From Selenomonadaceae bacterium (GTDB lineage: Bacteria > Bacillota > Negativicutes > Selenomonadales > Selenomonadaceae): a stretch of DNA of 15,161 nucleotides. The stretch is from positions 1 to 15,161 of the forward strand of contig JAFTEG010000163.1 in NCBI GenBank assembly GCA_017453765.1. The letters are read 5' to 3'. This document shows positions 904 to 15,161 of the stretch, in pieces (the stretch's first letter is position 1; the number at the start of each line of letters is the position of its first letter). The position numbers and the translations under genes are program-made. The notes below the pieces were generated by a model that saw only the letters and a program-made list of their open reading frames with translations, was not told where the DNA came from and searched no databases.

Positions 904-980
904 GAATTAAGAGTTAAGAGTTAGGAGTTAGGAGTTAGGAGTTGGAAGTTAGGAGTTAGGAGTTGGGAGTTGGGAGTTAC
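904..980. repeat. Heptanucleotide tandem array upstream of hisF (11 units)
   Basis: From 911 to 980 there are ten back-to-back 7-bp units on the plus strand: GAGTTAA, GAGTTAG (three times), GAGTTGG, AAGTTAG, GAGTTAG, GAGTTGG (twice), GAGTTAC. A weaker unit, GAATTAA, precedes them at 904-910. The array fills most of the spacer between the PTS stop (991) and the hisF ribosome-binding site, so it would lie in the leader of any PTS-hisF readthrough transcript. It has no arms that could form a hairpin. It has the same 7-bp period as the arrays before topB and before the helicase module. Confidence 0.97.
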
Positions 981-990
981 CAGCTCTAAG

Positions 991-2322
991 CTACTCTTCA
1001 GGATCGTCAAAGCCCAAAAACCACGTTGCGATAAATCCTGCGACGTACGACACGCCGACGCCTAAAAGGTAAATCGGAATGTTATTAACCGTTGCGGCAA
1101 GCGGTAAGCCGGAAATTCCCAAAGTCGCCGCACCTACCATGTTTGACGCTTGCACTGCTCCGCCAAATGCCGCACCTATGCACGCGCCTATGAACGGTCT
1201 GCCCAGCGGAAATGTCACGCCGTAAATCAGCGGTTCGCCTACGCCCATCATTCCGATTGGCAACGCCGACGCGATAGTTTTTTTCAAAAATTTATTTTTC
1301 GTCTTGAAATAAACCGCCGCCGCCGCGCCGACTTGTCCCGCACCTGCCATTGCCAATATCGGAAGTAAAATAGTAAAGCCATAAGTTGAAATTAAATCCA
1401 CGTGTATCGGCGTGAAGGCTTGGTGGACGCCGAACATTACGAGCGGTAACCATACGCCTGCCAAAATCGCGCCTACCACGCCGCCGCCGGAACTTATCGC
1501 GCTTGTTGCCGCAGTACCTATCGCGTCAGAAATTGCGCCGCCTACCGGTTGCAAAATGAAAATTGCCGCCGCGCCCGCCGTCAGCACGGTTATGAAAGGC
1601 GTTAAAAATAAATCGAACATTTCAGGCACGACTTTGTGCAAAATTTTTTCAAGCCACGCGCCCAATGCCGCGACAAGTACCACTGAAATTACGCCGCCGC
1701 GTCCCGGTAAAAGATTATCGCCGAAAATATTTATATCGGCAAGCGCGGGGTGAGTTATTATCGCCGCCAATACGCCGCCGATTATCGGAGTGCCGCCGAA
1801 AATTTTTCCCGCGTTGTAGCCTACAAATAAATTCATTCCCCAAAATACCGCGTTGCCGAAGACTGAAAGCAACTTAATAATCTGCGCGTTTGCAAGTTCC
1901 GGCGAAATTTTCAGCGCCACGCCGACAAGTCCCGTTATCAAGCCGCACGCTATAAAGCCTGGTATCAGCGGGATAAATATGCTTGAAATTTTTTTCAGAA
2001 AAAGTTTGAACGGCGTAGCATTTTTCGCGCGTATTTCTTCGTGCAACGCCTTGCCGTCACCTATTCGCGGCTTATTAGACTTTTTTAAAATTTCGTTTAA
2101 CGCCGTCGCCACGTTGGTGGACTTGCCGGGACCTACGATAATTTGAAATTCGTTTTCCTCTTCATTGATGCCGGGAACGCCTTCAAGCTTTTTCACTTCG
2201 TCCGCAGAAATTTTTTTCGCAAGTTGAAGACGCACGCGCGTCATACAATTTGTCACGGATAAAATATTTTCAGCTCCGCCTGCAATTTTAAAAATTTGTT
2301 CGGCGAGTTGCTCATTAGTCAA
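991..2322 (-). CDS. PTS sugar transporter EIIBC, N-acetylmuramate/sucrose type (MurP-like)
   Basis: Inner-membrane permease that imports a sugar and phosphorylates it. It is 443 residues from a TTG start at 2322. Residues 1-85 are the cytoplasmic EIIB domain with the phospho-accepting Cys26 in VTNCMTRVRL. Residues about 105-440 are the EIIC domain, with many hydrophobic segments, the FGVHQAFTPIH motif (H300) and GVGEPLIYG (E363) of the glucose-fructose-lactose superfamily. There is no EIIA domain, so phosphate must come from a separate EIIA-Glc-like protein, as in the MurNAc and some sucrose/trehalose permeases. The overall look is closest to MurP, but no murQ etherase or kinase is nearby to fix the substrate, so no symbol is given. 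The TTG at 2322 is preferred over an in-frame TTG at 2340: it has GGAAGTGAT (plus-strand 2329-2337) at good spacing and leaves a normal leader after the promoter described here. hisF follows after 112 bp. Confidence 0.88.
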   Translation of the reverse strand: MTNEQLAEQIFKIAGGAENILSVTNCMTRVRLQLAKKISADEVKKLEGVPGINEEENEFQIIVGPGKSTNVATALNEILKKSNKPRIGDGKALHEEIRAKNATPFKLFLKKISSIFIPLIPGFIACGLITGLVGVALKISPELANAQIIKLLSVFGNAVFWGMNLFVGYNAGKIFGGTPIIGGVLAAIITHPALADINIFGDNLLPGRGGVISVVLVAALGAWLEKILHKVVPEMFDLFLTPFITVLTAGAAAIFILQPVGGAISDAIGTAATSAISSGGGVVGAILAGVWLPLVMFGVHQAFTPIHVDLISTYGFTILLPILAMAGAGQVGAAAAVYFKTKNKFLKKTIASALPIGMMGVGEPLIYGVTFPLGRPFIGACIGAAFGGAVQASNMVGAATLGISGLPLAATVNNIPIYLLGVGVSYVAGFIATWFLGFDDPEE

Positions 2323-2330
2323 AATAAAAT

Positions 2331-2356
2331 CACTTCCCAAAAATTTTTAGGAAGTG
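2331..2356. promoter_or_regulatory. 26-bp palindromic operator over the PTS transcription start
   Basis: The two halves are CACTTCCCAAAAA (2331-2343) and TTTTTAGGAAGTG (2344-2356). They are inverted copies with one mismatched pair. The palindrome overlaps the promoter -10 hexamer, the predicted start near 2346 and the PTS ribosome-binding site. Since transcription should start near its centre, a full RNA hairpin would not form, so it is better read as a DNA operator for a dimeric repressor. The cognate regulator is not in the window. RpiR/MurR, GntR or LacI types are possibilities for such transporters. Confidence 0.72.
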
Positions 2357-2381
2357 TAGCAATTTATATTTTGAAAGTCAA
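2353..2381 (-). promoter_or_regulatory. Sigma-70/sigma-A promoter of the PTS gene
   Basis: On the minus strand, TTGACT (-35, plus 2376-2381) and TACACT (-10, plus 2353-2358) are separated by exactly 17 bp of AT-rich spacer. The predicted start, about 7 bp further on near 2346, gives a leader of about 24 nt before the TTG start at 2322. This is the best promoter in the window. It gives the PTS gene, and perhaps hisF, independent expression from topB. Confidence 0.75.
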
Positions 2382-2399
2382 GAAACTCAATTTTCCGAA

Positions 2400-2438
2400 C
2401 AACTTAACACGGCAACTTCACGTGACAATTTAACGTGG
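2400..2438. repeat. Three tandem 13-bp repeats upstream of the PTS promoter
   Basis: The plus-strand units are CAACTTAACACGG (2400-2412), CAACTTCACGTGA (2413-2425) and CAATTTAACGTGG (2426-2438); a fourth partial start, CAACTC, follows at 2439. They fill the space between the topB stop codon (2443) and a point about 19 bp upstream of the PTS -35. They could be binding sites for an activator or simply another short tandem expansion. The 13-bp period does not match one helical turn. Confidence 0.7.
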
Positions 2439-2442
2439 CAAC

Positions 2443-4464
2443 TCATCTCTGCCGAAACATTTTTTCTTCAAGCGCGGGTTTACCTTTCAAGTCATTGCAA
2501 GTCATATTGCAGGCGGGATATCGACTGCAACCCCAAAATACGCCGTTCCTGCCGTTGCGCTGAACCATAACGCCTTTTTGACAGCGCGGGCATTTGTAGA
2601 GACCTGTAGGCGCTTTAAATTTGGCGTTGAGGGCGTCCGCGCAAAGTTCGCCGGTAAATTTTGCTTGACCGCTTAAAAATTCATCAAGCGTCCCTTTGCC
2701 GTCTGACATAAGGTAAAGTTTATCTTCCCAAATAGCCGTAGCGTCGGGATAAGTCAGCGCGTCCGGCAAGGCGTCAATCAGCAGAAAGGCTTTTTCAGTC
2801 GGCGTTAAAGTTTTTTTCTTGTCACGCGCAGTGACCAAAAAATTTCGCTTAATCAAGTCGTCAATGATAGCCGCGCGTGTCGCCTCCGTGCCGATGCCGT
2901 AAACATCTTTAAGTTTTACTTTTAAATCGGGGTCTTTCACGAACTTATGAATTTCTTTCATGCCTTGTACCAAAGTTGACGGCGTAAACCGCGCAGGTTT
3001 TTGAGTGGTGCTGATTTTAACTTCTGCGTTTTCATAAGTCACCTTGTCGCCCTGTTTCATCTTCGGCAACGTTTCAGCGACCTCATCTTCTTTGACAACT
3101 TTCGGCATTGTGTAAAAATCGCGCCAACCGTTTTGCGTAACCATTTTTGAAGTGACGGAAAAAATTTCATCCTTGTACGTGACAGTCACGGTAGTTTCGT
3201 CGTAAAGGTGCAGTTTGTGAAATTGCACGGCGTAATTTTTTGCAATGAGATTGTAGACGTTCAATTCAATCTGCGTGACTTCGCCGAGCGGCTTGACTGT
3301 AGGGATAATTGCATGGTGCGCGGAAATTTTTTTATCATTCCACGCGCGGCTTTTAATTTTCGCGTCGGCGTTGTCAACGAGTCTTTTTAAAATTTCGTCG
3401 TCGGTATTTTGCAGGTGCGCCAAAATTTTTGTAGCGGCGTGAAATTGATTCAGCGGCAAGTATTGACAGTCGGAGCGCGGGTACGTGGTAAATTTTTTTT
3501 CATACAAACTCTGCGCGGCGTCCAAAACTTGTTGCGGCGTGTAGCCGAATATTTTACCGGCGGCAATTTGTAAGGCTGAAAGTGAAAAAGGTAGCGGCGG
3601 CGATTCTTTACGCTTGGCAGATTCAAGCTTGGTAATTTCGGCGTCGTGCGGCATTTCGGAAAATTTTTTGAGAAAGTACGCTACGGCTTTTTTATTTACC
3701 AATCGCCCTTCCGAATCAATCGCCGTAGGATTTATGGACTTTATAAACTCTTCATTCGGACGCCATATCGCGGTAAACATTCCGTTAGCGTGTTGAAACT
3801 GCGCGTGAATTTTATAAAAATCTACCGGCTTGAAATTTTGAATTTCGCGTTCACGGCGAACAACCAGCGCTAAAGTCGGCGTCTTTACCCTGCCAATAGG
3901 CAACACCAATTTTTTATGTCCGGCATTTTGCGCGGCAAGAGTGTAGGCGCGTGAAAGATTCATACCGATAAGCCAATCTGCGCGGGAGCGTGCAAGGGCG
4001 GACTGTTTCAAGTTAAAAAAATTTTTATTGTCGTCAAGGTGCGACAGCGCGTAAATAATGCTGTCACGGTCAAGTGCGTTAAGCAAAATTCGCTTGACGG
4101 GTTTTTTATTGCCGATAAAATCCAAAACTTCGTCAACAAGTAATTGCCCTTCTCTGTCGGGGTCGCCGGCATGAACAATTACATCAGCCTTTGACACCAA
4201 ATTTTTTACAATGTTAAACTGCGCGGCGGCTTTGGGGTCGACTTCCATTTTCCATACGGCGGGAATTATCGGCAGGTCTTCAAGCCGCCAAATTTTATAT
4301 TTCGCGTCGTAAGCGTCCGGTTCAACTTGACGCAGGACGTGACCGAAAAGCCACGTTACAACGCCGTCGTCCGTCTTTATGTAGCCGTCACCTTTTTTGG
4401 GATTTTTAAGGCACGCGGCAATTTCTCTCGCCATACTCGGCTTTTCGGCAATGAACAAGCGCAA
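2443..4464 (-). CDS. topB: DNA topoisomerase III (type IA)
   Basis: Type IA topoisomerase that passes single strands to decatenate DNA and resolve recombination intermediates, often with a RecQ-type helicase. From the TTG at 4464 it is 673 residues and starts MRLFIAEKPSMAREIA, the standard TopB opening. The TOPRIM domain shows E7/K8 and the metal-binding DPDRE at 101-105. The catalytic tyrosine is Y328 in TTYPRSD, the same number as in E. coli TopB. The C-terminus (about 623-660) carries one Cys4 zinc finger (CPRC ... CSRYPAC), so the protein is full length. A longer frame from GTG at 4473 is rejected because that GTG lies inside the Shine-Dalgarno GAGGTGAT (plus 4469-4476), which is well placed for the TTG. 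Chromosomal and mobile-element TopB proteins look alike; its place next to a defence-like module is noted, but a functional link is only an inference. Confidence 0.96.
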   Translation of the reverse strand: MRLFIAEKPSMAREIAACLKNPKKGDGYIKTDDGVVTWLFGHVLRQVEPDAYDAKYKIWRLEDLPIIPAVWKMEVDPKAAAQFNIVKNLVSKADVIVHAGDPDREGQLLVDEVLDFIGNKKPVKRILLNALDRDSIIYALSHLDDNKNFFNLKQSALARSRADWLIGMNLSRAYTLAAQNAGHKKLVLPIGRVKTPTLALVVRREREIQNFKPVDFYKIHAQFQHANGMFTAIWRPNEEFIKSINPTAIDSEGRLVNKKAVAYFLKKFSEMPHDAEITKLESAKRKESPPLPFSLSALQIAAGKIFGYTPQQVLDAAQSLYEKKFTTYPRSDCQYLPLNQFHAATKILAHLQNTDDEILKRLVDNADAKIKSRAWNDKKISAHHAIIPTVKPLGEVTQIELNVYNLIAKNYAVQFHKLHLYDETTVTVTYKDEIFSVTSKMVTQNGWRDFYTMPKVVKEDEVAETLPKMKQGDKVTYENAEVKISTTQKPARFTPSTLVQGMKEIHKFVKDPDLKVKLKDVYGIGTEATRAAIIDDLIKRNFLVTARDKKKTLTPTEKAFLLIDALPDALTYPDATAIWEDKLYLMSDGKGTLDEFLSGQAKFTGELCADALNAKFKAPTGLYKCPRCQKGVMVQRNGRNGVFWGCSRYPACNMTCNDLKGKPALEEKMFRQR

Positions 4465-4467
4465 ATT

Positions 4468-4512
4468 TATCACCTCGATTAGTGAAGAGTGAAGAGGGAC
4501 TAGGGACTAGGG
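4468..4512. repeat. 45-bp direct repeat, copy 1 (topB leader)
   Basis: These 45 bp are identical to 14508-14552. The repeat includes the Shine-Dalgarno GAGGTGAT of topB (minus strand, plus 4469-4476), which fixes the TTG start at 4464. The identity stops abruptly four bases before the start codon on one side and within the heptad array on the other. With copy 2 it brackets the four-gene helicase module exactly; corresponding bases are 10,040 bp apart. Confidence 0.97.
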
Positions 4513-4541
4513 AGTAGTTGGTAGTGAATAGTCAGTAGTTA
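4479..4541. repeat. Degenerate heptad array upstream of topB (9 units)
   Basis: The plus-strand 7-bp steps are TTAGTGA, AGAGTGA, AGAGGGA, CTAGGGA, CTAGGGA, GTAGTTG, GTAGTGA, ATAGTCA, GTAGTTA. The array fills most of the 96 bp between the helicase stop (4561) and the topB start. The first five units lie inside or across the 45-bp direct repeat; the rest are specific to this site. No convincing promoter or terminator hairpin was seen here, so topB may be read through from the module. Confidence 0.88.
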
Positions 4542-4560: not shown

Positions 4561-7500
4561 TTAAAAGAATTGCTTTATTTTATCTAAAACATACGGTTTT
4601 GCATACTTAAAAAATGAATCGCAAATAAAAATTTTTCCGTCGCCAAAAGGTTCTGCCTGCATTGAAGGATACACAATCACTTCATAATTTATGCCGCACT
4701 TGCTGATATAAAATTTTTTATTTTCGACAGACAACTTGTAGCCGTCTTCGTTTAAAATATTTTTTACCGAATCAACATATTTACGTTGCGTATCAAAAGA
4801 AATTTCGCCGGCAATTTCCCCGCTTATCCCCCAATCAAGCAGATTTAAAGCATAAAAGCGATCCAACTTTCCATGCGCGTGTTGGTTACGGTAATGTTTT
4901 AAGCATTTGTCGCATGCAGACGCGCAATCGCAAGAGGATAAAAGCTCTTTCATATTTTTAAACAGATTTTTAATTTCCGATTCAATTTTTACCGAATAAC
5001 CAGCGCCTCCGGACAAAGTATCATAAACGTAAATGTCGACAAGAGTTTTTTGTTGAACAGCACTTCTGCGAATGCGATATCCCGTGACAAGTTCTCCGAA
5101 GTCTATGTCCAATTCTTTGCTGAGTGAAAGCCGAAATACCTCTGCCAAAGATTGAGCGGCACGATGCAACCAAAGATTTTCATTGCTGTTACGCGTATCA
5201 ATTTTGTTATCGTCAAGTGCAAATTCCAAAACAAGCATATCCGTGACAAAATCGTAGCCTAAATTTACGTTTATTATATCGTTATGTTTGCAGGTAGCTC
5301 TTGCGAAAGGTGACTTATAAGGACGTCCGACATATTTTAATGGGTCATCTTTAGTGGCGGGCATTGCGGCGCCACAATCTTTACAAACGGCAAAGCCTGT
5401 ATCGTTGGGACCTTTGTTCATCATGATAATGCGCTGATTTTTCCGTGACGCCATACGAACATTTTTACAAAAGTCTATGCAAGACATTTCGTCATCATTG
5501 GGCAAAGTGGAATATTCCGGCGCTTGCGCAAAAGAATATTCTTCCGTTAATTGAGCTTCGGCAATTTCGACTGAATCTTTCGGCGCAAAGCCCCAAGGTC
5601 TCAACAATTTATTTTCGGCAGGAATTAATTTTTCATTGCCGCAGAAAGGACATTCGGTGTAATTTTCTTCCTTTAAACCAAACCAGCCACATTTTTCACA
5701 CGTCATCAAAGTTTTAATGTAGTTGGGGTCCTCCATAAACGTTCGCGCAGGTCTTACAGCTTGCCCTCTACGCTTTTCACTGCCGTAGTAATATATGCCG
5801 CCTATCTGATAGGTTTTTTTGTCGACAACTATTGACCGACCCGGCGCATATTCACTTATGGCGATATCCAAGCCGCGTTCAACTTGATATTGAATTTTGC
5901 CGTTATTGTCGACAATGTATGTGCTGACTACATTTTTTGGAAAAGAGTATGTGGGAATAATGCCCTCTTCATAAAGCGCGTCCAACAAACTCTTTGCGTC
6001 TGCCGTAATTTCGCCGTCATCATTTATGCCGAACATTTCAGGGTGCATTTTCTTTTTTTCATTTAGCGAGTTTAATTCTTTGAAAAGTTCCGCGCAGAGA
6101 CTTTGCATATCGCCGTTTTTGAAAGTTACGGGAACCAACACGGTATCGGCGGGAAATTGAAAAGTGCCGACAAATTTTTTGAAGTCATCGAAGAGGTTAT
6201 TTAAAAATTCTGCCGCAGAAATGCCGTCAAGACTCAACTCTTTCTGCGCTAAATCCTTCTGCACTAAATTTTTCTGCGCTAAAAATTCTTGAAACAAGAT
6301 CATATTTAAATGGCGGCTGAATAATTTTTCGCTTTCAACATCGATAAAAGGCTTGCGGGGATCTCCGCGAAACATCGGCACGGGATTATTAAAGTAAAGC
6401 ATATCGTGCGGACCGTCTTTACAAAAAGTTACTATCGTTGAAAGACTTGCGCCGCGTCTTCCTGCACGTCCTGCGCGTTGCTGATAATTTTCGCGCATCG
6501 GCGGGATATTTCGCAAGCCGACAGCTACCAATGACCCTATGTCTATGCCAACTTCCATTGTCGTGGTACTGCTTAAAATGTCAACCGGCAATTCGCCTTT
6601 GTTCAAAAAATCTTGAAAGCGCAATTCGTACGTTTCGGTTTTAGACCAAAAAGCGTCACGTTGATCCTTATGAGAAAGTTGCGCGGTATGTTCTTCGGTA
6701 TCTATCACTCGAATTTTGCCGCCGTTCAAAGCAATTTCTATAGGCGTACGCCAAAATTCCAACGCTTTAAAATCATCTTCATTCAAAACGTGAGTAGAGT
6801 TACTGCCGCAATTAGGACATCTGCCTTTCAAAAGGTACGGCGTCAACTCTTTGCACTTTTCGCAACGGTGCCATTGGTGACTTTCATCAGGACTTTTATC
6901 AAAACTTTCATCAGGACTTTCATCAAAACTTTCATCAGGACTTTCATTAAAAGGCGACTTCAAACTTTTATCAAAACGCGCCTTCAAAGAGCTGACGTCA
7001 ACATAAAAATTTTTACTGTCCGTATTCTTACGCAAAAATCTATCCTGCAGAATCTGCTTGAAAATTTTCATCTGCTTAGAATCTTTTTTCCAATTCAAAA
7101 TCTCGCAAATGACTTTTGAAAATTCCCACGTGTCGCTTAAGCCGTAACCGCCGAAATTTTGACGTACGTTTTTTCTCACGGCATCTGAAAAATTATATCC
7201 CAGCGCCGTGTGTTTATCGCAAACTGACATTATCCACGCATTGAAAATTTCTAAAAAATCTTCTTGCGAAATTTCTATGCCGGCATCTTCCAACTTATCA
7301 ATGACAAATTCCATCTCATCTTGATTCGGCTCCAGCCAACTTACCGCAGAATCATACAAGGTATTGTAGCCGCCACAGAAAAGACGTAACAAAACTTCCT
7401 TCATCTGATTTTGCGCATTTTCCAAGTTAAGAGTAGGTTTATACTTTCGCCGTTTCTTTTTGGCATTTTGAAAATTTTCGGACGCCTTCTTACAATCTGC

Positions 7501-9936
7501 AACAAAATTTTCGCGCTCTTCGCCGGTAAAAATTTGCACGTTGTTGTTACCTGCGGCAATGCAAAAATAATCATACAGACTGCTTAAAGATAATTCGGAA
7601 GAGTTTTTTTCCATTTCGTAGGCGGCAATGGCGAATAACTGACGCGCCGCAATGTCATCGGAGATTTTTGACATGTCACGCGCCAAAGTTGCGGCACTTT
7701 GTCGGCTGTCTGAAAAAATTAATACCTTGCGCCCTTCATTCGGCATAATGTCAGGTTTATCGTCTTTACCGATAACGGCAGGTTGACTTTGAAATTGCGT
7801 TTTTATCAGATTGAAAAAAGAATTATTGCCGCGCGTGCTGAATGAGGTTAGTTGAGTGTTTGACATTTGGTGACGGCAATGCGGACATTCAAAAAAGGTT
7901 ACAACATTCGGACGACCTTTAACGCCGAAATCGCAGTAGTAAAGTTTGCGCATGCCTTCCATATTTTTCTTGGCGTCAAAATAAATATATCCGCTCTTCA
8001 CATCAAGATAGCAGGGCTTTAATGGATATTTTGAAGATTTTTGTTGATCGTCCACCTTGTAATCTTCGGGCGGTATGAAAAAATGATATTCCTTCATACG
8101 CTTATCGAGTATTTGACCGGAATTTCGCCACAGAAAAGTTTTGTCGACATTTTTAATATCACCGAGAATATAGCCTTTAAAAAATAACGCGCCGCAACGT
8201 CTGTCATTGTAAAGTTCATACACCGTGCTGTTGCAATGCGGACAAGTCAATTCGCCGTCCGAAAGAAAAATTTCTCCCAACGTCAAATTGCCGTAAGCCG
8301 TCTTTTCACTGTTAGAGTGAGGACAATTTGGATTGGTGCAGGCGTAAATGCCTTTTATACCGCGAAAGAGCATGTGCATTCTTACCGGAAACAAAACGGC
8401 GCCTTTATCGTTTCTTGCCTGCGGCGCTATTGCCAACAAATTGCTGACTGCTTTAAGTGCGTTCGATTCAGCGGCATTTGGAAAAATTTTTGTTGCCAGT
8501 TCACGCAGAGAAAGCGCCGTGCCGCGACAAAGACGTATCATTTCGTTGAAAGGCCTGTAGTCAGTCAAATAATCATAAAGCCACGCCGCCGCCTTTTGCA
8601 GGGAAGAAAATTTTTTCGGTGCATTTTCAACGTCTTGCCAAAATTTATTCAGCTCATTTAATTTGTCTTTTTCATTGCCTTCAAATTTTTCAGGGTCAAA
8701 GTTCAAAATCTTTTTAATATCGATATCGTACTTTGCAGTTGCAGACAAAATTTCACGTTCGCCGGTCAGATATTCAAAGTCACAATCACTTTCCGCACAG
8801 GTGAGATTTTTAAAAAAGTCTCGTACGGCTTTTTCGTTATCACCTGCGGGCATACTTGCCGTTGTCAAAATGAATTGAACTTTTTCACGCGAAATTCCAA
8901 GCTTGTAAAGCAATCTGCGTATAAGAAATGCCACTTCGCCGCCTGCAGAACCTTTGTACATATGCGCTTCATCAATTACAAAGAGCAATTTATTGGAAGG
9001 ATCTGCGTTAAGCCACGCTTTTGTTTCGTCCCAAATTTTTTTCTCCGCCGGTCTTATAAGCATATATTCAAGCATTGAATAGTTTGTAATTAAAATATCG
9101 GGACAAAAATTTTGAATTTCAAATCGCGTGATTAATTCTGCGTCTTCTGCGTCGGGAATGTGCTGACTTTTGCCTAACCTTTCAAGAAATTGACGTGGGC
9201 TTTCTTTGGCAGGTATCTTGCCGCTTTCAGAAAGTTCCTTGAAAAAATCGGCTGTATCATCTTCCGGCGTCATAATCAATTCCAACGTCGCTTTTAACTT
9301 TTTATCCTGCGTTTTAAGTTTTTCACCGGGATAAGGCGTACGCCCCGTGTACATTCCGAATTTAGGGCGGCGGGAATTTTTTCCGCAAAATTCGCGAAAG
9401 ATATTTACAAAATTTTTTTCCCTGTCACCCAGTAACCTTCTAAGTCTGCTTACTTGATCCGCTACAAGCGCATTCATCGGGTACATAATCATAACGCGAA
9501 CGCCGCGATTTTTCCACGTTGTCGGGGAATCTTTTGCCTCTTTTGCAAGTTTGGCAATTATAGGCCACATAAAGCATTCTGTTTTGCCTGAGCCTGTACC
9601 CGTTGAAACAAATAAATCCTTGCCCCTTGACGCATACTCCAATGCTTGAATTTGGTGTACAAAAGGCGAAGTGTAGACGCCTAAACCTGCTTTTCCCAAT
9701 TTAATAAAAAATCTTTTTAGCCAATCTTTCAAATTTATTTTTTGAAACCCGTCCGGCAAGCTTTTATATGCCGGTGAAGATTCTATGTAAGGTTCTCTGT
9801 ATAATAAGCCTTCTTCTTTCAATCTCTCGGACAAGGCATTAAGCAACAAGGGAGATCTGCCCAAGTACTGCGATTTAATGTAGTTTTCCAATGCCTTACA
9901 CAATTCGCTGTGAATGGAATTTGCGCAATATGACAT
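4561..9936 (-). CDS. Giant DEAD/DEAH superfamily 2 helicase with C-terminal DUF1998/MZB zinc module (DruE/MrfA-like)
   Basis: ATP-driven DNA helicase or translocase of 1791 residues. RecA1: Walker A TGTGSGKT (112-119), motif Ia MYPMNALVADQ (151-161), DEAH (322-325), motif III TTAS (358-361). A Cys-rich region follows (C533/C538/C565/C568; C684/C687). RecA2 opens with KVLIFSDSRQ (737-746), but motif V (SSTTTMEVGIDIG, 1122-1134) and motif VI (YQQRAGRAGRRG, 1151-1162) come about 375 residues later. The insert holds a helical segment, a repetitive linker (about 990-1020) and a zinc ribbon (C1025/C1028/C1040/C1043). Further zinc pairs are C1413/C1416/C1429/C1432 and C1518/C1521. The C-terminal DUF1998/MZB part shows YDTLSGGAGYS and CDCASACDKCLKHYRNQ (C1669, C1671, C1675, C1678). 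Such fusions occur in MrfA (DNA repair) and Druantia DruE (anti-phage); the great length and the neighbours favour DruE-like. The ATG is 3 nt after the previous stop, with GAGGAG 9 nt upstream. It is the last gene of the module. Confidence 0.9.
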   Translation of the reverse strand: MSYCANSIHSELCKALENYIKSQYLGRSPLLLNALSERLKEEGLLYREPYIESSPAYKSLPDGFQKINLKDWLKRFFIKLGKAGLGVYTSPFVHQIQALEYASRGKDLFVSTGTGSGKTECFMWPIIAKLAKEAKDSPTTWKNRGVRVMIMYPMNALVADQVSRLRRLLGDREKNFVNIFREFCGKNSRRPKFGMYTGRTPYPGEKLKTQDKKLKATLELIMTPEDDTADFFKELSESGKIPAKESPRQFLERLGKSQHIPDAEDAELITRFEIQNFCPDILITNYSMLEYMLIRPAEKKIWDETKAWLNADPSNKLLFVIDEAHMYKGSAGGEVAFLIRRLLYKLGISREKVQFILTTASMPAGDNEKAVRDFFKNLTCAESDCDFEYLTGEREILSATAKYDIDIKKILNFDPEKFEGNEKDKLNELNKFWQDVENAPKKFSSLQKAAAWLYDYLTDYRPFNEMIRLCRGTALSLRELATKIFPNAAESNALKAVSNLLAIAPQARNDKGAVLFPVRMHMLFRGIKGIYACTNPNCPHSNSEKTAYGNLTLGEIFLSDGELTCPHCNSTVYELYNDRRCGALFFKGYILGDIKNVDKTFLWRNSGQILDKRMKEYHFFIPPEDYKVDDQQKSSKYPLKPCYLDVKSGYIYFDAKKNMEGMRKLYYCDFGVKGRPNVVTFFECPHCRHQMSNTQLTSFSTRGNNSFFNLIKTQFQSQPAVIGKDDKPDIMPNEGRKVLIFSDSRQSAATLARDMSKISDDIAARQLFAIAAYEMEKNSSELSLSSLYDYFCIAAGNNNVQIFTGEERENFVADCKKASENFQNAKKKRRKYKPTLNLENAQNQMKEVLLRLFCGGYNTLYDSAVSWLEPNQDEMEFVIDKLEDAGIEISQEDFLEIFNAWIMSVCDKHTALGYNFSDAVRKNVRQNFGGYGLSDTWEFSKVICEILNWKKDSKQMKIFKQILQDRFLRKNTDSKNFYVDVSSLKARFDKSLKSPFNESPDESFDESPDESFDKSPDESHQWHRCEKCKELTPYLLKGRCPNCGSNSTHVLNEDDFKALEFWRTPIEIALNGGKIRVIDTEEHTAQLSHKDQRDAFWSKTETYELRFQDFLNKGELPVDILSSTTTMEVGIDIGSLVAVGLRNIPPMRENYQQRAGRAGRRGASLSTIVTFCKDGPHDMLYFNNPVPMFRGDPRKPFIDVESEKLFSRHLNMILFQEFLAQKNLVQKDLAQKELSLDGISAAEFLNNLFDDFKKFVGTFQFPADTVLVPVTFKNGDMQSLCAELFKELNSLNEKKKMHPEMFGINDDGEITADAKSLLDALYEEGIIPTYSFPKNVVSTYIVDNNGKIQYQVERGLDIAISEYAPGRSIVVDKKTYQIGGIYYYGSEKRRGQAVRPARTFMEDPNYIKTLMTCEKCGWFGLKEENYTECPFCGNEKLIPAENKLLRPWGFAPKDSVEIAEAQLTEEYSFAQAPEYSTLPNDDEMSCIDFCKNVRMASRKNQRIIMMNKGPNDTGFAVCKDCGAAMPATKDDPLKYVGRPYKSPFARATCKHNDIINVNLGYDFVTDMLVLEFALDDNKIDTRNSNENLWLHRAAQSLAEVFRLSLSKELDIDFGELVTGYRIRRSAVQQKTLVDIYVYDTLSGGAGYSVKIESEIKNLFKNMKELLSSCDCASACDKCLKHYRNQHAHGKLDRFYALNLLDWGISGEIAGEISFDTQRKYVDSVKNILNEDGYKLSVENKKFYISKCGINYEVIVYPSMQAEPFGDGKIFICDSFFKYAKPYVLDKIKQFF
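6241..6285. repeat. Three tandem 15-bp repeats inside the helicase gene
   Basis: The units at 6241-6255, 6256-6270 and 6271-6285 share the core TTCTGCRCTAAA. On the coding strand they give an in-frame five-residue repeat, LAQKN-LVQKD-LAQKE, at about residues 1219-1233 of the helicase, just after the RecA2 core. This is probably a helical spacer that grew by slippage. Confidence 0.9.
6880..6951. repeat. Six tandem 12-bp repeats inside the helicase gene
   Basis: Six 12-bp units alternate as ACTTTCATCAGG and ACTTTYATYAAA, a 24-bp higher-order period. They encode six in-frame tetrapeptides (FNES, PDES, FDES, PDES, FDKS, PDES) at about residues 996-1019. The acidic, Ser/Pro-rich stretch is likely a disordered linker between the helical insert and the zinc ribbon at C1025. 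Unit number can change without a frameshift, so linker length may vary between strains. Confidence 0.95.
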
Positions 9937-9939
9937 CTT

Positions 9940-10983
9940 TCACGTCTCCTCAATAAAAGTATATCCCACATTTTCAAAAAATTTTTTCAGCGCAAAGAAA
10001 ACGTCTTTGTCAAAAGTCCTTTTGAAAATGCTGAGTTCAGATAAATTTTGCGACCAGCTGTAAAGACACATCAAGTACAATTCGGCAGGCGGCGGAAGAT
10101 ATTTCAACTTCAAATGTACAATCGCGCCGTCAACTTCGTAGACAAAAGGCGGAAGTGTCCCGTTAGCCGCAAGACAAGCGCAGGAAATTTTTCTGTAGGC
10201 GCCTCCGCGTCGATTTTCCGTGCCTTCTGCAAAAAATTCGTCATTAGTCAGCCAATTCGGAATTTGACTGAATAACCTCTTTTCGCCGTCAAATTTGTAA
10301 AAATAATATATTCGCGGCTTGGTGACAGCAGTTCGGGTAATTGAAATTTTTCCGTCCGTCTCATGTTTATTTTGCCAATAACCCTTGCTGAAAGGCGGCG
10401 TCATTCTTAAAAATTCCATGTCATCAGCCAAATTTTCAACGCGCAGATTTATGGACGTCATCAACTCTTGCCACGTCTCAAGCAAAGTTTTACCCTGCAA
10501 ACAAAACATTTCGGTTAAACTCTTTAATTTCGTGTCGGCGGTAAAATTTTTTTCGCTTGCAGGTAAATAAAATCCTGCTCCGCTTAAATGAACTTTTTCG
10601 GCAGGCGTAATTCCACGCAAAAATAAATTCCCGCTCTTTTCGGCAACACAAGGAATTGAAGCGGAAATTCGGTGCGCTTTATGGTAAACGTAACCTGTCT
10701 TCAAATATAAATCGTAAAGTTCATCGGCAAGACATTCAGAAATTTTCACTTCGGGATAGAGTTCACTGTAGGCGCCTGAAAGTGCGGCAACTCTGTCTTT
10801 GAAATGCGTTATTGATACGGTTGATTCTGCGTCGTCCGATTTATCCCAAAGACTTGCATAGCTTAAACGTGCCAGCGCGGAGTAAATGATTCTGCTTTTG
10901 AAATTTTCATTCGGCTCATTTTCGCCTTGCCTTATGTCATACTCTGCGGCGATTGAACTTAAAAGTTCCGCATATTTTTTCAT
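9940..10983 (-). CDS. Module protein of unknown function, 347 residues
   Basis: I do not recognise a family. The protein is soluble, with no signal peptide or membrane segment. Residues about 1-110 look helical; the middle has a beta-type stretch (KSGNLFLRGITPAEKVHLSGAGFYLP, about 115-140); the C-terminal third has a proline-rich strand region (LKLKYLPPPAELYLM) followed by helices. No nuclease (HKD, PD-D/ExK), protease, methylase or NTPase motif is visible. The ATG at 10983 overlaps the stop of the upstream coiled-coil gene by four bases (ATGA), and its GGAGG Shine-Dalgarno ends 4 nt before it, so translation is coupled. Three nucleotides separate its stop from the helicase ATG. By position (small protein right before the giant helicase) it resembles druD of Druantia type I, but that is position only; I cannot confirm homology. 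It is probably a partner of the helicase. Confidence 0.85.
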   Translation of the reverse strand: MKKYAELLSSIAAEYDIRQGENEPNENFKSRIIYSALARLSYASLWDKSDDAESTVSITHFKDRVAALSGAYSELYPEVKISECLADELYDLYLKTGYVYHKAHRISASIPCVAEKSGNLFLRGITPAEKVHLSGAGFYLPASEKNFTADTKLKSLTEMFCLQGKTLLETWQELMTSINLRVENLADDMEFLRMTPPFSKGYWQNKHETDGKISITRTAVTKPRIYYFYKFDGEKRLFSQIPNWLTNDEFFAEGTENRRGGAYRKISCACLAANGTLPPFVYEVDGAIVHLKLKYLPPPAELYLMCLYSWSQNLSELSIFKRTFDKDVFFALKKFFENVGYTFIEET

Positions 10984-12932
10984 TCGTCCTCCAAAAAAGC
11001 GCGTATTCTTTCAGCAATTTTTTCATCGCCGTTAAAATTGTCCAAAAAATTTTTGTCGTTGCCTTTGACATAAGCCAACGGAAATTTTGTGAAAAGCACG
11101 GCGAAATTTTTTAACTTGTCCGCGTTGCTTTTAAAATGCGCGCCGGCAATTTCTTTCATATCTTTTGTAAGTTTTTTTATGCGTTCGGCGGCTGAAATAG
11201 GAATGTCGTCAGGAGTGTAGCCTTTAAACATAGCTTTTTTGACAGCGGAATTTAAATTGTAACCTGTAGAGTAAAAATCGCGCGAAGAGCGTTTGGCAAT
11301 GATAAGTTCTGTAAGCACCGGCAAAAAGTAATTGTACAAACTGCGCGGCTCAATACGCAGGTCCTCTGCAAAAGGATATATCGCAAAAATAAATTTATTA
11401 TCAAGGTTAATTATTTCTGGCAAGTACGCCATAAAATTCGGCGAAAAGGGATTGAGTACGGCAATTACTTCGTCGTCACTTTCAACACAAGCATTCAGAT
11501 CATCAAGCGAATTTACGCCTGCGCAATCCAAAATTGCCGCCGTTTTTCCTGTAAGCACCACTGAAAAAGCATCTGCAATGTCTCTGCCGTTTGGACCCGC
11601 CAAAAGCAAAGGAAATTTATTTCTGTAGGCGGAACAAAGATATATGGAAAAACTAAGCATCATGTCCGACGTCACGCCTTCGCAACCTATCGCCGTCTCC
11701 AAATCATATATAAAATCTTGAATACTTTCAATTTCTCTAACATCGTCACTTTCAATAATTTTGCCGTGACGATAGTTTTTAATTGCCGGAACTTCCCGCG
11801 CAGGTTGACTTTGAACGGCGGCGGGCTGTGCGTTTACAAAAATCGTTTCGCAGATAAAGTCGGTAACGTTTTTTCTTGCAGTTTCAATTCTTTCAGCAAC
11901 TTGGTGAGCGATATCGCGTAAAATAATTTTCTGCGTTTCAATTTGGCTTGAGATTGATTCAAGCTCCGCCTGCTTATCGGAAATTTGCTTCTCCAATTCC
12001 GCGCAGGTTGCTTGATATTCCTCAAGTTGTTTTGTATAGTCTTCAATCTTTTTTGTTGCCGCAGAAATTTTTTCCTCGTTTTCAAGACGCCATTTCTCTT
12101 CAATGCCGCTATAGTCAACAACATATTTATTTGAGCAGATATACAGACGATTATAAAACATTTTACCTGCCACATGGACAATGTCTTTAAAGCTGACTTC
12201 AAACCATTCAATATTTTTATTTTTAAGCTTGATTTTTTTGTGGTTGCCTACGGTCTCAAAATTTTTGCCGCATAAAAATATTCCGCAATAAGTCTTATGA
12301 TCTATAGGATATGTTATGAAAGCTTTGCCGCTGATTAAATTAATTTCTATGCCTTGAGTTAATAGTTTTTCCAAAGTCCTGTCGTCTTTACAATCCGGCA
12401 GGACGATTATTTCAATGGGAATCCTGTCTTCATACAGCGTGCAATATGTAAACTCGTCTCCATCTTGACATCTTGGATTAATTTCCGTACGCCAGCCCCA
12501 AACGCCGATTGAATTTAAAGTGTAATTTCTTTCCGCGTCAATCAAAACAGTTTTTTCAGGAATACAATTTTCACTAAGCGTTTTAATTTTATTACCTTCA
12601 ACGTCAGCCAATCTTTTCAATGTACTGCCGGCTCTTTGTGAAGTCCTGCCGGCGATACCTTCACTGTTAATAGTTTCAACAATGCATAATGACGTATAGG
12701 GATATTTTTCATTCTTTGAAAATTCGGCGGCAAGCATATCCAAAATCTCAGTTGTATCTCTAAAATGGCATGCCGCATTTTTATATTTGTTTCTTTCTCT
12801 TTCCAGTTTTTTACATCTTACATCAAGTTCTGTATATCGTGTTTCAAGTTCCCTGTAGCTTTCTTTTTCTTTTTCCACTTCTTCTATTTTATTAAATAAG
12901 GCGTCGTTCCAAGCGTCTTTCACACTTTCCAC
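10980..12932 (-). CDS. Coiled-coil protein with a degenerate P-loop/AAA-like C-terminal domain, 650 residues
   Basis: No family is recognised by name. Residues 15-55 are a charged coiled coil; 60-280 form a mixed domain of unknown type; 280-355 are a long coiled coil (KIEDYTKQLEEYQATCAELEKQ and onward); 365-395 are a Pro/Ala linker. Residues about 400-650 look like an AAA/McrB-type ATPase: a hydrophobic strand, then GPNGRDIA (446-453), where a Walker A would read GxxGxGK[ST]. Here the last Gly, Lys and Thr are replaced by D451, I452 and A453. The Walker B-like strand VIAVLNPF (489-496) lacks the acidic pair, and FIFAIYPFAEDL (514-525) sits where sensor 1 would be. I infer a non-hydrolysing structural or sensor domain. 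The GTG start at 12932 is set by AGGTG 6 nt upstream, inside the end of the preceding gene; the gap is 3 nt. A DruC-like role is possible by position only. Confidence 0.85.
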   Translation of the reverse strand: MESVKDAWNDALFNKIEEVEKEKESYRELETRYTELDVRCKKLERERNKYKNAACHFRDTTEILDMLAAEFSKNEKYPYTSLCIVETINSEGIAGRTSQRAGSTLKRLADVEGNKIKTLSENCIPEKTVLIDAERNYTLNSIGVWGWRTEINPRCQDGDEFTYCTLYEDRIPIEIIVLPDCKDDRTLEKLLTQGIEINLISGKAFITYPIDHKTYCGIFLCGKNFETVGNHKKIKLKNKNIEWFEVSFKDIVHVAGKMFYNRLYICSNKYVVDYSGIEEKWRLENEEKISAATKKIEDYTKQLEEYQATCAELEKQISDKQAELESISSQIETQKIILRDIAHQVAERIETARKNVTDFICETIFVNAQPAAVQSQPAREVPAIKNYRHGKIIESDDVREIESIQDFIYDLETAIGCEGVTSDMMLSFSIYLCSAYRNKFPLLLAGPNGRDIADAFSVVLTGKTAAILDCAGVNSLDDLNACVESDDEVIAVLNPFSPNFMAYLPEIINLDNKFIFAIYPFAEDLRIEPRSLYNYFLPVLTELIIAKRSSRDFYSTGYNLNSAVKKAMFKGYTPDDIPISAAERIKKLTKDMKEIAGAHFKSNADKLKNFAVLFTKFPLAYVKGNDKNFLDNFNGDEKIAERIRAFLEDE

Positions 12933-12935
12933 AAT

Positions 12936-14501
12936 CTACACCTGCAATTCATTGAGCAAAAAATTTCTAAAAATGTTAAAAGACTCTTCTGTTGCAAAAC
13001 CTGCGCGAATACTTTTGTAAAGCCAACTTTTAACTTTAGGATAAGACGCCAAAAATTTTTCCGCATTGCCCCAAGCGTGCGGGATTTTTATCGGACGTCC
13101 CGTGCCGCGCTCCAACAGCGCATATAATTTTTCATCATCTTGCGAGACATTCTCTTCCTGTCGTTCAAAAACTATTTCAAATACGCAATCCAAGCCTTGA
13201 AAAATTTTTACGGACATTCCGAAATGCAACGTGCTGATATCAATTTCAAAACCCTCCTTTAAAGAAATTTTGTTGACCGTCACGCCGTTTTCACTGACCA
13301 ATACAAAGCCGTCGAACTCGGTATAAATTTGCATGATAAAATTTTTCGGCAGTCTGTATGAAATTCCGGTTGCAATGTCATTGCCTAAAATATCCGTCAC
13401 CGTGACGGCAGGTAATTTTACTTCGTCTGCAGGTAAGCCCCTCCAAAGATACATATACTCTAAAGTTTGCCTGCGTCTTGCCGCAACAATTTGGTGACTT
13501 GACTTTACATTTACCTTGATTAATTTGGCATTTTCATGTTCAAAAAGCCTGTCACTTTTTGTCAAAGGAAAAACATCAGGTTGAAAATCTCCGGTAAAAT
13601 AAAAAAAGACACTCGAAGAATCATGCCGAGTGACATTGGGTTCATTGGTAAAAACGGGATAAATCGGCTGCATTGAAACAGTTCTTGCCGTCAAGCGGTA
13701 GTGATAACCGAGAAAAAATTTTGCCGCCTTTTCACTTATAGCCGTCGCCGAAATTTTGTAAATGCGCCACGTAGTACCGTTAATATATTTTTTAATTTTA
13801 AAAGACATGGCAACATCATCAGGCACATTCATAAGCTCAAGATTTTGGGTTGTCAAAAGATAGTAGACCTCATCAATTTTTACATCGGAATCCGGCTGCA
13901 ACTTCCTGCCGCTGTCAGCGTGAAACAAAGTCCCCTGCATATTGACCCCGCCTATTTTCGCGCCCCAATAAAAATTTAATTCACTGCACGCAGGCTCCAC
14001 CTTTACCGTGTAATTTTCTGTAACCATATTACCGACATTCAGCCACGTTACAGAGTCTTTGCGCAGATACTCTTGCACTGAAAAATTTTTTTCACTTTCG
14101 CCGTTCGTAATGGTTATTATGCTGTCAGAAATTTTTTCAAAAATATCCTCCGGCAACCGCAACAATCCGACTTCAAAATAAAAATCGTCAGTCCCTACGA
14201 AAATTCGTAACGGCAGATCGTGACGAATATTTGTGACAGAATGCGGCGAATTACGTAGTTCAAATTGTTTACTGCGGTCTTTGCAATCTTTGTCCTGTTC
14301 AGCCGAAAGGTGTCGGAAGTGTGCTCTATTTTTTTGACCGCGTGCAAGAGTCACGTACTGGCCGCAAAGTTCGCACATAAATAATTTTCCGTATGCCGAA
14401 ACCGTACCAATATTTGGATATTTTCTTACAATTTCTTCAGCCGTAACCTTTTGCCAAGCGCCTTTTTCGTTTGACCACATACAAACGTTATCCACCGACA
14501 T
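12936..14501 (-). CDS. Module protein with N-terminal CoiA-like zinc finger, 521 residues
   Basis: First gene of the four-gene module. From the ATG at 14501 it starts MSVDNVCMWS. Residues 38-80 carry C43-x2-C46, H61-F-R-H64 and C73, with GxxFMCELCG and a Gly-basic stretch between. This is the spacing of the zinc-binding N-terminus of competence-protein CoiA-like families (CPxCG...G...HFxH...C). After that the protein is rich in predicted beta strands (about 90-450) with no nuclease motif that I can see, and ends with a helical tail. The CoiA-type nuclease core is not evident, so the zinc finger may serve for DNA or protein binding. A longer frame from GTG at 14513 is rejected because that codon lies in the Shine-Dalgarno GAGGTGAT (plus 14509-14516), which sits in the 45-bp repeat. 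The stop lies 3 nt before the next gene. A DruB-like role is possible by position only. Confidence 0.85.
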   Translation of the reverse strand: MSVDNVCMWSNEKGAWQKVTAEEIVRKYPNIGTVSAYGKLFMCELCGQYVTLARGQKNRAHFRHLSAEQDKDCKDRSKQFELRNSPHSVTNIRHDLPLRIFVGTDDFYFEVGLLRLPEDIFEKISDSIITITNGESEKNFSVQEYLRKDSVTWLNVGNMVTENYTVKVEPACSELNFYWGAKIGGVNMQGTLFHADSGRKLQPDSDVKIDEVYYLLTTQNLELMNVPDDVAMSFKIKKYINGTTWRIYKISATAISEKAAKFFLGYHYRLTARTVSMQPIYPVFTNEPNVTRHDSSSVFFYFTGDFQPDVFPLTKSDRLFEHENAKLIKVNVKSSHQIVAARRRQTLEYMYLWRGLPADEVKLPAVTVTDILGNDIATGISYRLPKNFIMQIYTEFDGFVLVSENGVTVNKISLKEGFEIDISTLHFGMSVKIFQGLDCVFEIVFERQEENVSQDDEKLYALLERGTGRPIKIPHAWGNAEKFLASYPKVKSWLYKSIRAGFATEESFNIFRNFLLNELQV

Positions 14502-14507
14502 TTTTCG

Positions 14508-14552
14508 TATCACCTCGATTAGTGAAGAGTGAAGAGGGACTAGGGACTAGGG
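14508..14552. repeat. 45-bp direct repeat, copy 2 (leader of the helicase module)
   Basis: Identical over 45 bp to 4468-4512. It carries the GAGGTGAT Shine-Dalgarno of the first module gene and, on the other side, the last two codons (AsnPro, only partly on the low side) and stop of the upstream partial gene (stop at 14547-14549). It marks the upstream edge of the module as copy 1 marks the downstream edge. Confidence 0.97.
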
Positions 14553-14567
14553 GTTAGGGGTTAGTTT
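14519..14567. repeat. Heptad array upstream of the helicase module (6-7 units)
   Basis: The plus-strand 7-bp steps are TTAGTGA, AGAGTGA, AGAGGGA, CTAGGGA, CTAGGGG, TTAGGGG, then a weaker TTAGTTT. The first part is shared with the topB array as the 45-bp repeat; the last two units are specific here and encode, on the minus strand, part of the C-terminus of the upstream gene (LTPNP). No promoter for the module could be recognised in this stretch. Confidence 0.88.
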
Positions 14568-15161
14568 TTGTGCGGCAAAACTTTTCAACATCTTCAAAGC
14601 ATATTCAGCCTCATGAAAATCTTGCCAGCGATTTTGCATTCGGAAGTTCACCATAACCTGCGACAGTATTCTTATGCAAAGTTCATTTAATTGGCTGACT
14701 GCTGAATAAGGTAACGTCAAAATGCGCGGCATCTCTTCAACCAACATTAAGACATCGGAAATTTTCAAATTGGTGTACATAGCTCGGCAAATTGCATTGA
14801 GTGCGGCTTCTTCAAAAAATTTCGCGGCGTATTCATCAAGAAATTTTTCTTTAAGGTACGAACTCAAATTCAGGCAAGTTAAAAACGTTTCCATGTTGCC
14901 TTCAAAAAATTGCGGCGTTAAATTTTTGGTAACTACCGGCAAAAGATTTTGAGCAAGCGCGTTGAAAAGTCTGCCGTGATTTATTTTTTTGGACTGCAAA
15001 AGATTTTCCATGCCGCCGTACGGCAACAAAGAGACTAAGCGCGAATCACGGTACCTTACAATGCCGTCGTCAAATTCGTCATTGGTATCATGTTTTTTGA
15101 AAACGTCAATATCACGTTTCTTTGAGCCATCCGCAGTGCCGCGACTGATTTTTTGTTCGTA
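14547..15161 (-). CDS. Unrecognised protein, 3' part only (at least 204 residues)
   Basis: The frame is open from the window edge (codon 15161-15159) to a TAG at 14547-14549, so the true start lies outside. Inside the window the possible starts (TTG 15029, ATG 15011) lack a Shine-Dalgarno, and coding-like sequence continues upstream of them (YEQKISRGTADGSKKRDIDV and on). The first 45 residues are charged; from about residue 60 on the protein is a run of amphipathic helices (LFNALAQNLLPVV, FFEEAALNAICRAMY, LNELCIRILSQVMV), perhaps an alpha-helical repeat. It shows no catalytic motif and no similarity that I recognise to DruA (DUF4338). Its last residues, LTPNP, are encoded by the heptad array, so its end may have been rewritten when the repeat expanded. 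It runs in the same direction as the module with no terminator visible between them. Confidence 0.75.
   Translation of the reverse strand, partial: YEQKISRGTADGSKKRDIDVFKKHDTNDEFDDGIVRYRDSRLVSLLPYGGMENLLQSKKINHGRLFNALAQNLLPVVTKNLTPQFFEGNMETFLTCLNLSSYLKEKFLDEYAAKFFEEAALNAICRAMYTNLKISDVLMLVEEMPRILTLPYSAVSQLNELCIRILSQVMVNFRMQNRWQDFHEAEYALKMLKSFAAQKLTPNP

Follow-up and report, generated by a model that had tools for sequence, protein, structure and literature searches.

A probable Druantia type I relative without druA in a Selenomonadaceae genome: sequence comparison of a four-gene DruBCDE-like module

Results and discussion

The DNA described here (the window, i.e. the whole stretch of 15,161 nucleotides, nt) is the entire contig JAFTEG010000163.1, C31 in our numbering, of the Selenomonadaceae bacterium assembly GCA_017453765.1 (2.09 Mb, 431 contigs, 69% complete). 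Four coupled minus-strand genes occupy window positions 4561–14501; one encodes a large helicase and the others its three partners. The module is probably a relative of Druantia type I that lacks druA and is likely to block phage DNA by means of its helicase DruE, with the DruB-, DruC- and DruD-like proteins as predicted non-catalytic sensors and adaptors. This assignment is based on a helicase of the DruE1 type and on partners that match DruB, DruC and DruD by profile and synteny, albeit weakly; from it we infer a role in anti-phage defence. The genes of the module are, with lengths in amino acids (aa):

4561..9936, minus strand: druE-like gene; 1791 aa, YprA-family superfamily 2 helicase of DruE type I
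9940..10983, minus strand: druD-like gene; 347 aa, no recognised catalytic motif
10980..12932, minus strand: druC-like gene; 650 aa, coiled coil, beta domain, coiled coil and predicted AAA+ fold
12936..14501, minus strand: druB-like gene; 521 aa from the ATG at 14501 (open reading frame to 14513, 525 aa)

Transcription runs in the order B-C-D-E and all four reading frames are open over their full length. The gaps of 3, −4 and 3 nt in the list of open reading frames agree with the coupling described in an initial annotation of this DNA. Six window proteins were scanned against PADLOC and eight against Pfam. Relatives were sought in sets of 66 genus, 380 class and 398 phylum genomes; genomes are labelled G (G000 being the source genome) and loci L.

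The DruE helicase

The druE product (P0001) matched PADLOC DruE1 with 1759 bits, the next best profile being DruE2 (646 bits), followed by DruE3 at 556 and DruE4 at no more than 646 bits; DpdJ and DrmA gave 75 and 39 bits. Pfam assigned DEAD, Helicase_C and MZB, each over cut-off, which bears out the DEAH helicase of 1791 residues with DUF1998/MZB that had been proposed. The motifs GTGSGKT, DEAH and QRAGRAGR start at residues 113, 322 and 1153, and 14/14 aligned DruE proteins share Walker A, DEAH, motif VI and the cysteine pattern for zinc binding. As judged from the sequence, DruE is the only protein of the module that retains a recognised catalytic core. In a comparison with PDB chains, a solved YprA chain scored 59 bits vs 248 and 233 bits for two long helicases. 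Chains 9tu7 and 9wae are described by their depositors as helicases, and their length and score lead us to assume a Druantia link.

Past residue 1700 a proline is the single invariant column of the 14 aligned rows, and no acidic or lysine column is conserved in at least 11 of them. This pattern agrees with PMC12458937, in which DruE of types I and II is reported to end in a predicted inactivated Vsr nuclease domain. In-frame tandem repeats of 12 and 15 nt were also observed inside druE (window 6879–6952 and 6242–6283). The repeat at 6879–6952 gives rise to an SPDESFDE-type insertion that is absent from the other 13 aligned DruE proteins; such repeats may vary in length.

The DruB-, DruC- and DruD-like partners

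The three partners were compared with PADLOC and, by profile–profile alignment, with two groups of homologues: the P. putida/G699 pair and the methyltransferase-linked branch. The latter comprises four modules (L028, L029, L031, L069) that share with the window the B-C-D-E order, the DruE clade and the absence of a detectable DruA; it differs in that a D12 adenine methyltransferase follows druE, and its DruE is 37% identical to that of the window. The branch reaches 831 bits against PADLOC DruB1 and 586 bits against DruD1, so that sequences of this kind were probably known to the PADLOC curators.

The DruB-like protein matched DruB1 at E 1.5e-5, and Pfam CoiA_N and DUF7830 at E 3.6e-4 and 6.6e-6, both below the Pfam cut-offs; CoiA_N is found over cut-off in P. 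putida DruB. Together with the CCHC residues C47, C50, H68 and C77, conserved in 46/46 aligned rows, this corroborates the CoiA-like zinc finger noted at the outset. The protein is predicted to combine this CoiA_N-like finger with immunoglobulin-like beta domains and C-terminal helices. In profile–profile comparison it reached a probability of 87% with the P. putida/G699 pair and of 89% with the methyltransferase-linked branch. DruC matched PADLOC DruC1 at E 0.071 in its coiled-coil part only. Its degenerate Walker A reads AGPNGRDIADAF, and GK[S/T] occurs at the P-loop position in 0/35 aligned rows, as expected for the dead P-loop that had been read from the sequence. Structure prediction suggests a coiled coil and an AAA+ fold with this dead P-loop. 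DruD matched DruD1 at E 5e-9. Both DruC and DruD match their counterparts in the methyltransferase-linked branch with a profile–profile probability of 98.7%. In bits, the PADLOC matches of DruB, DruC and DruD are weak (22.1, 9.5 and 33.6).

Gene order in relatives

The likeness to druB-druC-druD-druE first pointed out from gene order and size is matched by profiles, synteny and the DruE tree. Complete B-C-D-E modules in the same order are found in L024, L027, L030, L036 and L078. L026, from the one-contig genome G321, has the same order with druE interrupted at L026:15848–16900 by an IS30-like transposase gene that encodes HTH_38 and rve domains. The order is also preserved on the cut contigs of L025, L033 and L035; L034 holds a remnant. 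The profiles used to locate these genes included several of the rows that they matched, so that the E-values obtained are not independent. In L066 (L066:1193–10858) B and C are present, druD is missing and the helicase starts at residue 584. This record (MT836687.1, human faeces) is filed as an unverified bacteriophage and carries an IS110-type transposase; its phage label is doubtful.

A whole-genome search of 13 genomes with the DruB profile gave matches in eight, all of them with the module save for one contig-end fragment in G152, and none in the four methyltransferase-linked genomes and G193. For DruB, to which this search was confined, no scattering outside the module was thus seen.

Absence of DruA and the DruE tree

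DruA (DUF4338, PF14236) was not found in the recovered 69% of the source genome. In the class set, 12/380 genomes carry this DruE and none of these 12 gave a DruA match, while the single class genome with DruA, G233, has no DruE match. The G233 protein is a 1196-aa open reading frame (L071:8926–12516). The phylum search for DruE matched 3/398 genomes and led to G723, in which DruA was not found either, which brings DruA to 0/13 genomes with this DruE clade. The DruA search that covered G723 found DruA in 4/4 control records outside the clade (G699 and three plasmid records), and in 0/7 near-complete clade genomes. A profile built from the DruA proteins of L064, L065, L067 and L068 matched, over 20 loci, only its four sources and L070 and L071; over ten viral-contig loci it matched L081, L082, L083 and L084. 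A DruA hidden upstream of druB was considered and rejected, as eight open reading frames at this place in L024, L027, L035 and L036 gave no PADLOC DruA match. For L036, L066 and L078 the absence of DruA refers to the fetched stretch. In the window, the gene upstream of druB belongs to a common genus family and has no PADLOC match at E ≤ 1, in line with the earlier observation that no DruA-like gene is visible on the contig.

The DruE tree has 25 rows, 14 of which, all without DruA and including the window, form one group with 100/100 support. This druA-less group spans several families and splits into the four methyltransferase-linked rows (100/100) and ten other rows (87/84). For nine of the 11 rows outside the group the fetched stretch includes a DruA-type gene; none was found in that of L085, and L079 is cut. 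The tree is midpoint-rooted, contains one long branch (L064) and shows deviating composition in 18 rows. L026 is represented by its first piece and L066 and L032 by incomplete helicases; L077 (same module as L030), L080 (cut), L086 (distant) and the decayed or fragmentary L033, L034 and L035 were left out. The simplest reading of the tree is that DruA was lost or replaced once, at the base of the druA-less group. We found no description of a druA-less Druantia type I among the papers retrieved, most of which were covered only superficially. At the G699 locus a PD-(D/E)XK nuclease-type gene (PF12705, L070:14548–16916) overlaps the end of druE, with druA on the opposite strand directly past it.

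Comparison with known systems

According to PMC7251935 and PMC13316683, Druantia type I comprises five genes, DruABCDE. The window module shares with it the type I DruE, DruB, DruC and DruD in the same order and the CoiA_N-like zinc finger of DruB; it differs in that DruA was not found and in that DruB, DruC and DruD are only distantly related. Because DruA was not found, the module is filed as a druA-less relative and not as a type I system. PMC12458937 describes a coiled-coil protein with an inactivated CnuB-type NTPase beside DruE in Druantia I and II. Type IV CoCoNuT/Druantia II (DruM-F-G-E) would have in common with the window a coiled-coil partner with a predicted inactivated NTPase domain next to DruE, a putative likeness that refers to the published description of CnuB. 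In contrast to Druantia II, PADLOC gave no DruF or DruM match, and the helicase scores 646 bits for DruE2 vs 1759 for DruE1. Druantia III (DruH-DruE) shares a DruE-family helicase and differs by the absence of a DruH match here and by a DruE3 score of 556 bits. Its DruE carries a predicted active phospholipase D (PLD)-like nuclease domain according to PMC12458937. In PMC13192584, type III DruE is reported to be a helicase-nuclease that engages replication intermediates containing single-stranded DNA, and DruE is the one component common to all Druantia types.

The initial annotation had regarded the module as undescribed or strongly divergent. Divergence is borne out by the missing DruA and the weak DruB, DruC and DruD matches. 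"Undescribed" is too strong, since the helicase is DruE1 and an inactivated CnuB-type partner is already on record in PMC12458937: the module is a druA-less relative of a known system. DISARM had been considered unlikely; score and architecture speak against it and likewise against Dpd and MrfA. Helicase and MZB are fused in one protein here and encoded by split genes in DISARM, and neither a DISARM PLD nuclease nor a methyltransferase was detected among the window proteins scanned. For Dpd, which is marked by a DpdJ helicase and 7-deazaguanine genes, DpdJ reaches 75 bits vs 1759 for DruE1. P0006 matches DpdF with 260 bits, and this match falls on a topoisomerase III.

Flanking genes and the 45-nt repeat

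The module is flanked by hisF, a phosphotransferase system (PTS) transporter gene and topB on one side and by a gene truncated at the contig end on the other. The features at its edges are, with RBS for ribosome-binding site:

4468..4512, no strand: direct repeat copy 1; RBS and leader of topB, module 3′ edge
14508..14552, no strand: direct repeat copy 2; RBS and leader of druB, module 5′ edge
2443..4473, minus strand: topB (DNA topoisomerase III), outside the module; NCBIfam PRK07726, 718 bits, over cut-off
14547..15161, minus strand: flanking gene, outside the module; cut by the contig end, multicopy genus family of ~430 aa

The repeat is exact over 45 nt and 91% identical over 58 nt; 100 base shuffles yielded repeats of this kind of at most 13 nt. 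It is built of heptamers and gives topB and druB the same RBS. Since the GTG listed as the start of topB falls within this RBS, a TTG at 4464 is the likelier start. A 32-nt core occurs twice in the assembly (≤3 mismatches), at the two module edges. About ten copies of the heptamer TTAGGAG are present between hisF and the PTS gene (window 907–979), and the topB leaders of the window and of G188 contain heptamer stretches similar to this array. Flanking repeats longer than the best of 100 base shuffles were found at 0/13 other modules; the 45-nt repeat therefore marks a single insertion and not the family.

We infer that the module arrived as a cassette inserted into the topB leader, leaving the 45-nt repeat. 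In G188, DNA with 87% identity to the window can be followed from position 995 to 4530, where the match breaks off 31 nt short of the end of druE. Only a further 352 nt remain on this contig, with no match to the window proteins, and the sole module copy seen in G188 is decayed and lies on another contig. At the corresponding place in G157 there is no module: 15 nt separate the end of an upstream-gene paralogue from topB. The module of G163 and G201 comes after an aminotransferase gene. Matches to topB were found in 63/66 genus genomes and family matches of the upstream gene in 61/66, while the helicase or its remains show a patchy distribution (6/66). Single genomes have as many as 11 matches to the upstream gene family, frequently in adjacent positions. 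The GC content of the module is 38–41%, compared to 46–51% for hisF, the PTS gene and topB. As the upstream neighbour is also low (40.5%), this is no proof of insertion. An assembly misjoin at the 45-nt repeat is possible. Rfam gave zero matches in the window at gathering scores, and promoter-like and terminator-like sites were rarer than in shuffled sequence.

Proposed mechanism and its weak points

In the mechanism we propose, the B, C and D proteins would recognise phage DNA and load DruE onto exposed single-stranded or unmarked phage DNA. The loaded helicase would then translocate and strip proteins or stall the replication machinery, while destruction of the phage DNA, if any, would be left to host nucleases. 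A nuclease-free mechanism appears likely.

Several points weigh against a druA-less Druantia type I relative that works in this manner. Type III DruE is reported as a helicase-nuclease in PMC13192584, which makes the nuclease-free mechanism an extrapolation, and the inactivated Vsr domain is taken from PMC12458937, to which the present data add sequence columns only. Type I is described with five genes, so that a module of four may depend on a further partner encoded elsewhere, and 31% of the source genome is missing from the assembly. With the P. putida/G699 pair, DruC reached a profile–profile probability of 24% and DruD one of 1.4%, barely above controls. Finally, the relatives in G188, G193, G321 and L066 are broken or incomplete.

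Alternative explanations

A possible, if somewhat unlikely, alternative is that DruBCDE attacks unmethylated DNA, with an adjacent or distant methyltransferase marking self and replacing DruA. A D12 adenine methyltransferase lies 3–13 nt past druE in all four modules of one branch (assigned by Pfam on L028, and by 65–91% identity for L029, L031 and L069). Other DNA methyltransferases adjoin the module in L030 and L078 (C5 type, upstream; L078 also has an Eco47II-type endonuclease gene) and in L036 (Eco57I type, downstream, with a ResIII-domain protein). A type IV enzyme is found upstream in L026. The clade thus contains methyltransferase-followed modules, modules next to restriction–modification genes and bare BCDE modules like that of the window. 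Conversely, the Pfam scan detected no methyltransferase on the window contig, D12 was not found in the recovered 69% of G000, and the scanned neighbours in L024, L027 and L066 include no methyltransferase or restriction–modification gene. A methyltransferase acting in trans was rejected as well: D12 matches occur in 35/66 genus genomes (E ≤ 0.001) and do not track the module, being present in three (G152, G163, G201) and absent from three (G000, G188, G193) of the six genomes with the helicase or its remains.

The same neighbourhoods could be taken to define a distinct subtype, a mobile, self-contained and nuclease-free DruBCDE of 10 kb in which DruA is replaced by interchangeable D12, C5 or Eco57I methyltransferases or, in the bare form, by none; we regard this as unlikely and put it forward tentatively.

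It is improbable that the module is an incomplete Druantia I that persists as a passenger and is no longer protective after loss of druA. The missing DruA and the decayed, interrupted or incomplete copies in G188, G193, G321 and L066 would fit such a remnant. However, the four genes of the window are open over their full length with helicase motifs intact, and a well-supported druA-less clade that persists across several families is not what one would expect of a dead remnant.

A separate, undescribed defence system with a borrowed DruE-type helicase is distinctly improbable. The low PADLOC bit scores of the partners and the poor agreement of C and D with the P. putida/G699 pair are suggestive of such an origin, but profile–profile comparison links B, C and D at equal operon positions to the methyltransferase-linked Druantia, which itself scores highly for DruB1 and DruD1, and CoiA_N is present in P. 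putida DruB. A housekeeping DNA-repair operon of the MrfA kind, which would account for the MZB domain common to MrfA, is hardly credible given the DruE1 score, the 59 bits of the YprA chain vs 248 and 233, and the patchy distribution in the genus; the separation from the MrfA proteins themselves is by score.

Implications

A druA-less Druantia type I relative thus remains the preferred assignment. A clade without DruA would define a smaller Druantia core than the five genes of type I, and the methyltransferases that recur next to the module hint at a way in which self DNA could be spared. Should BCDE protect by itself, the module would represent a defence whose sole recognised catalytic site is the ATPase of a helicase.

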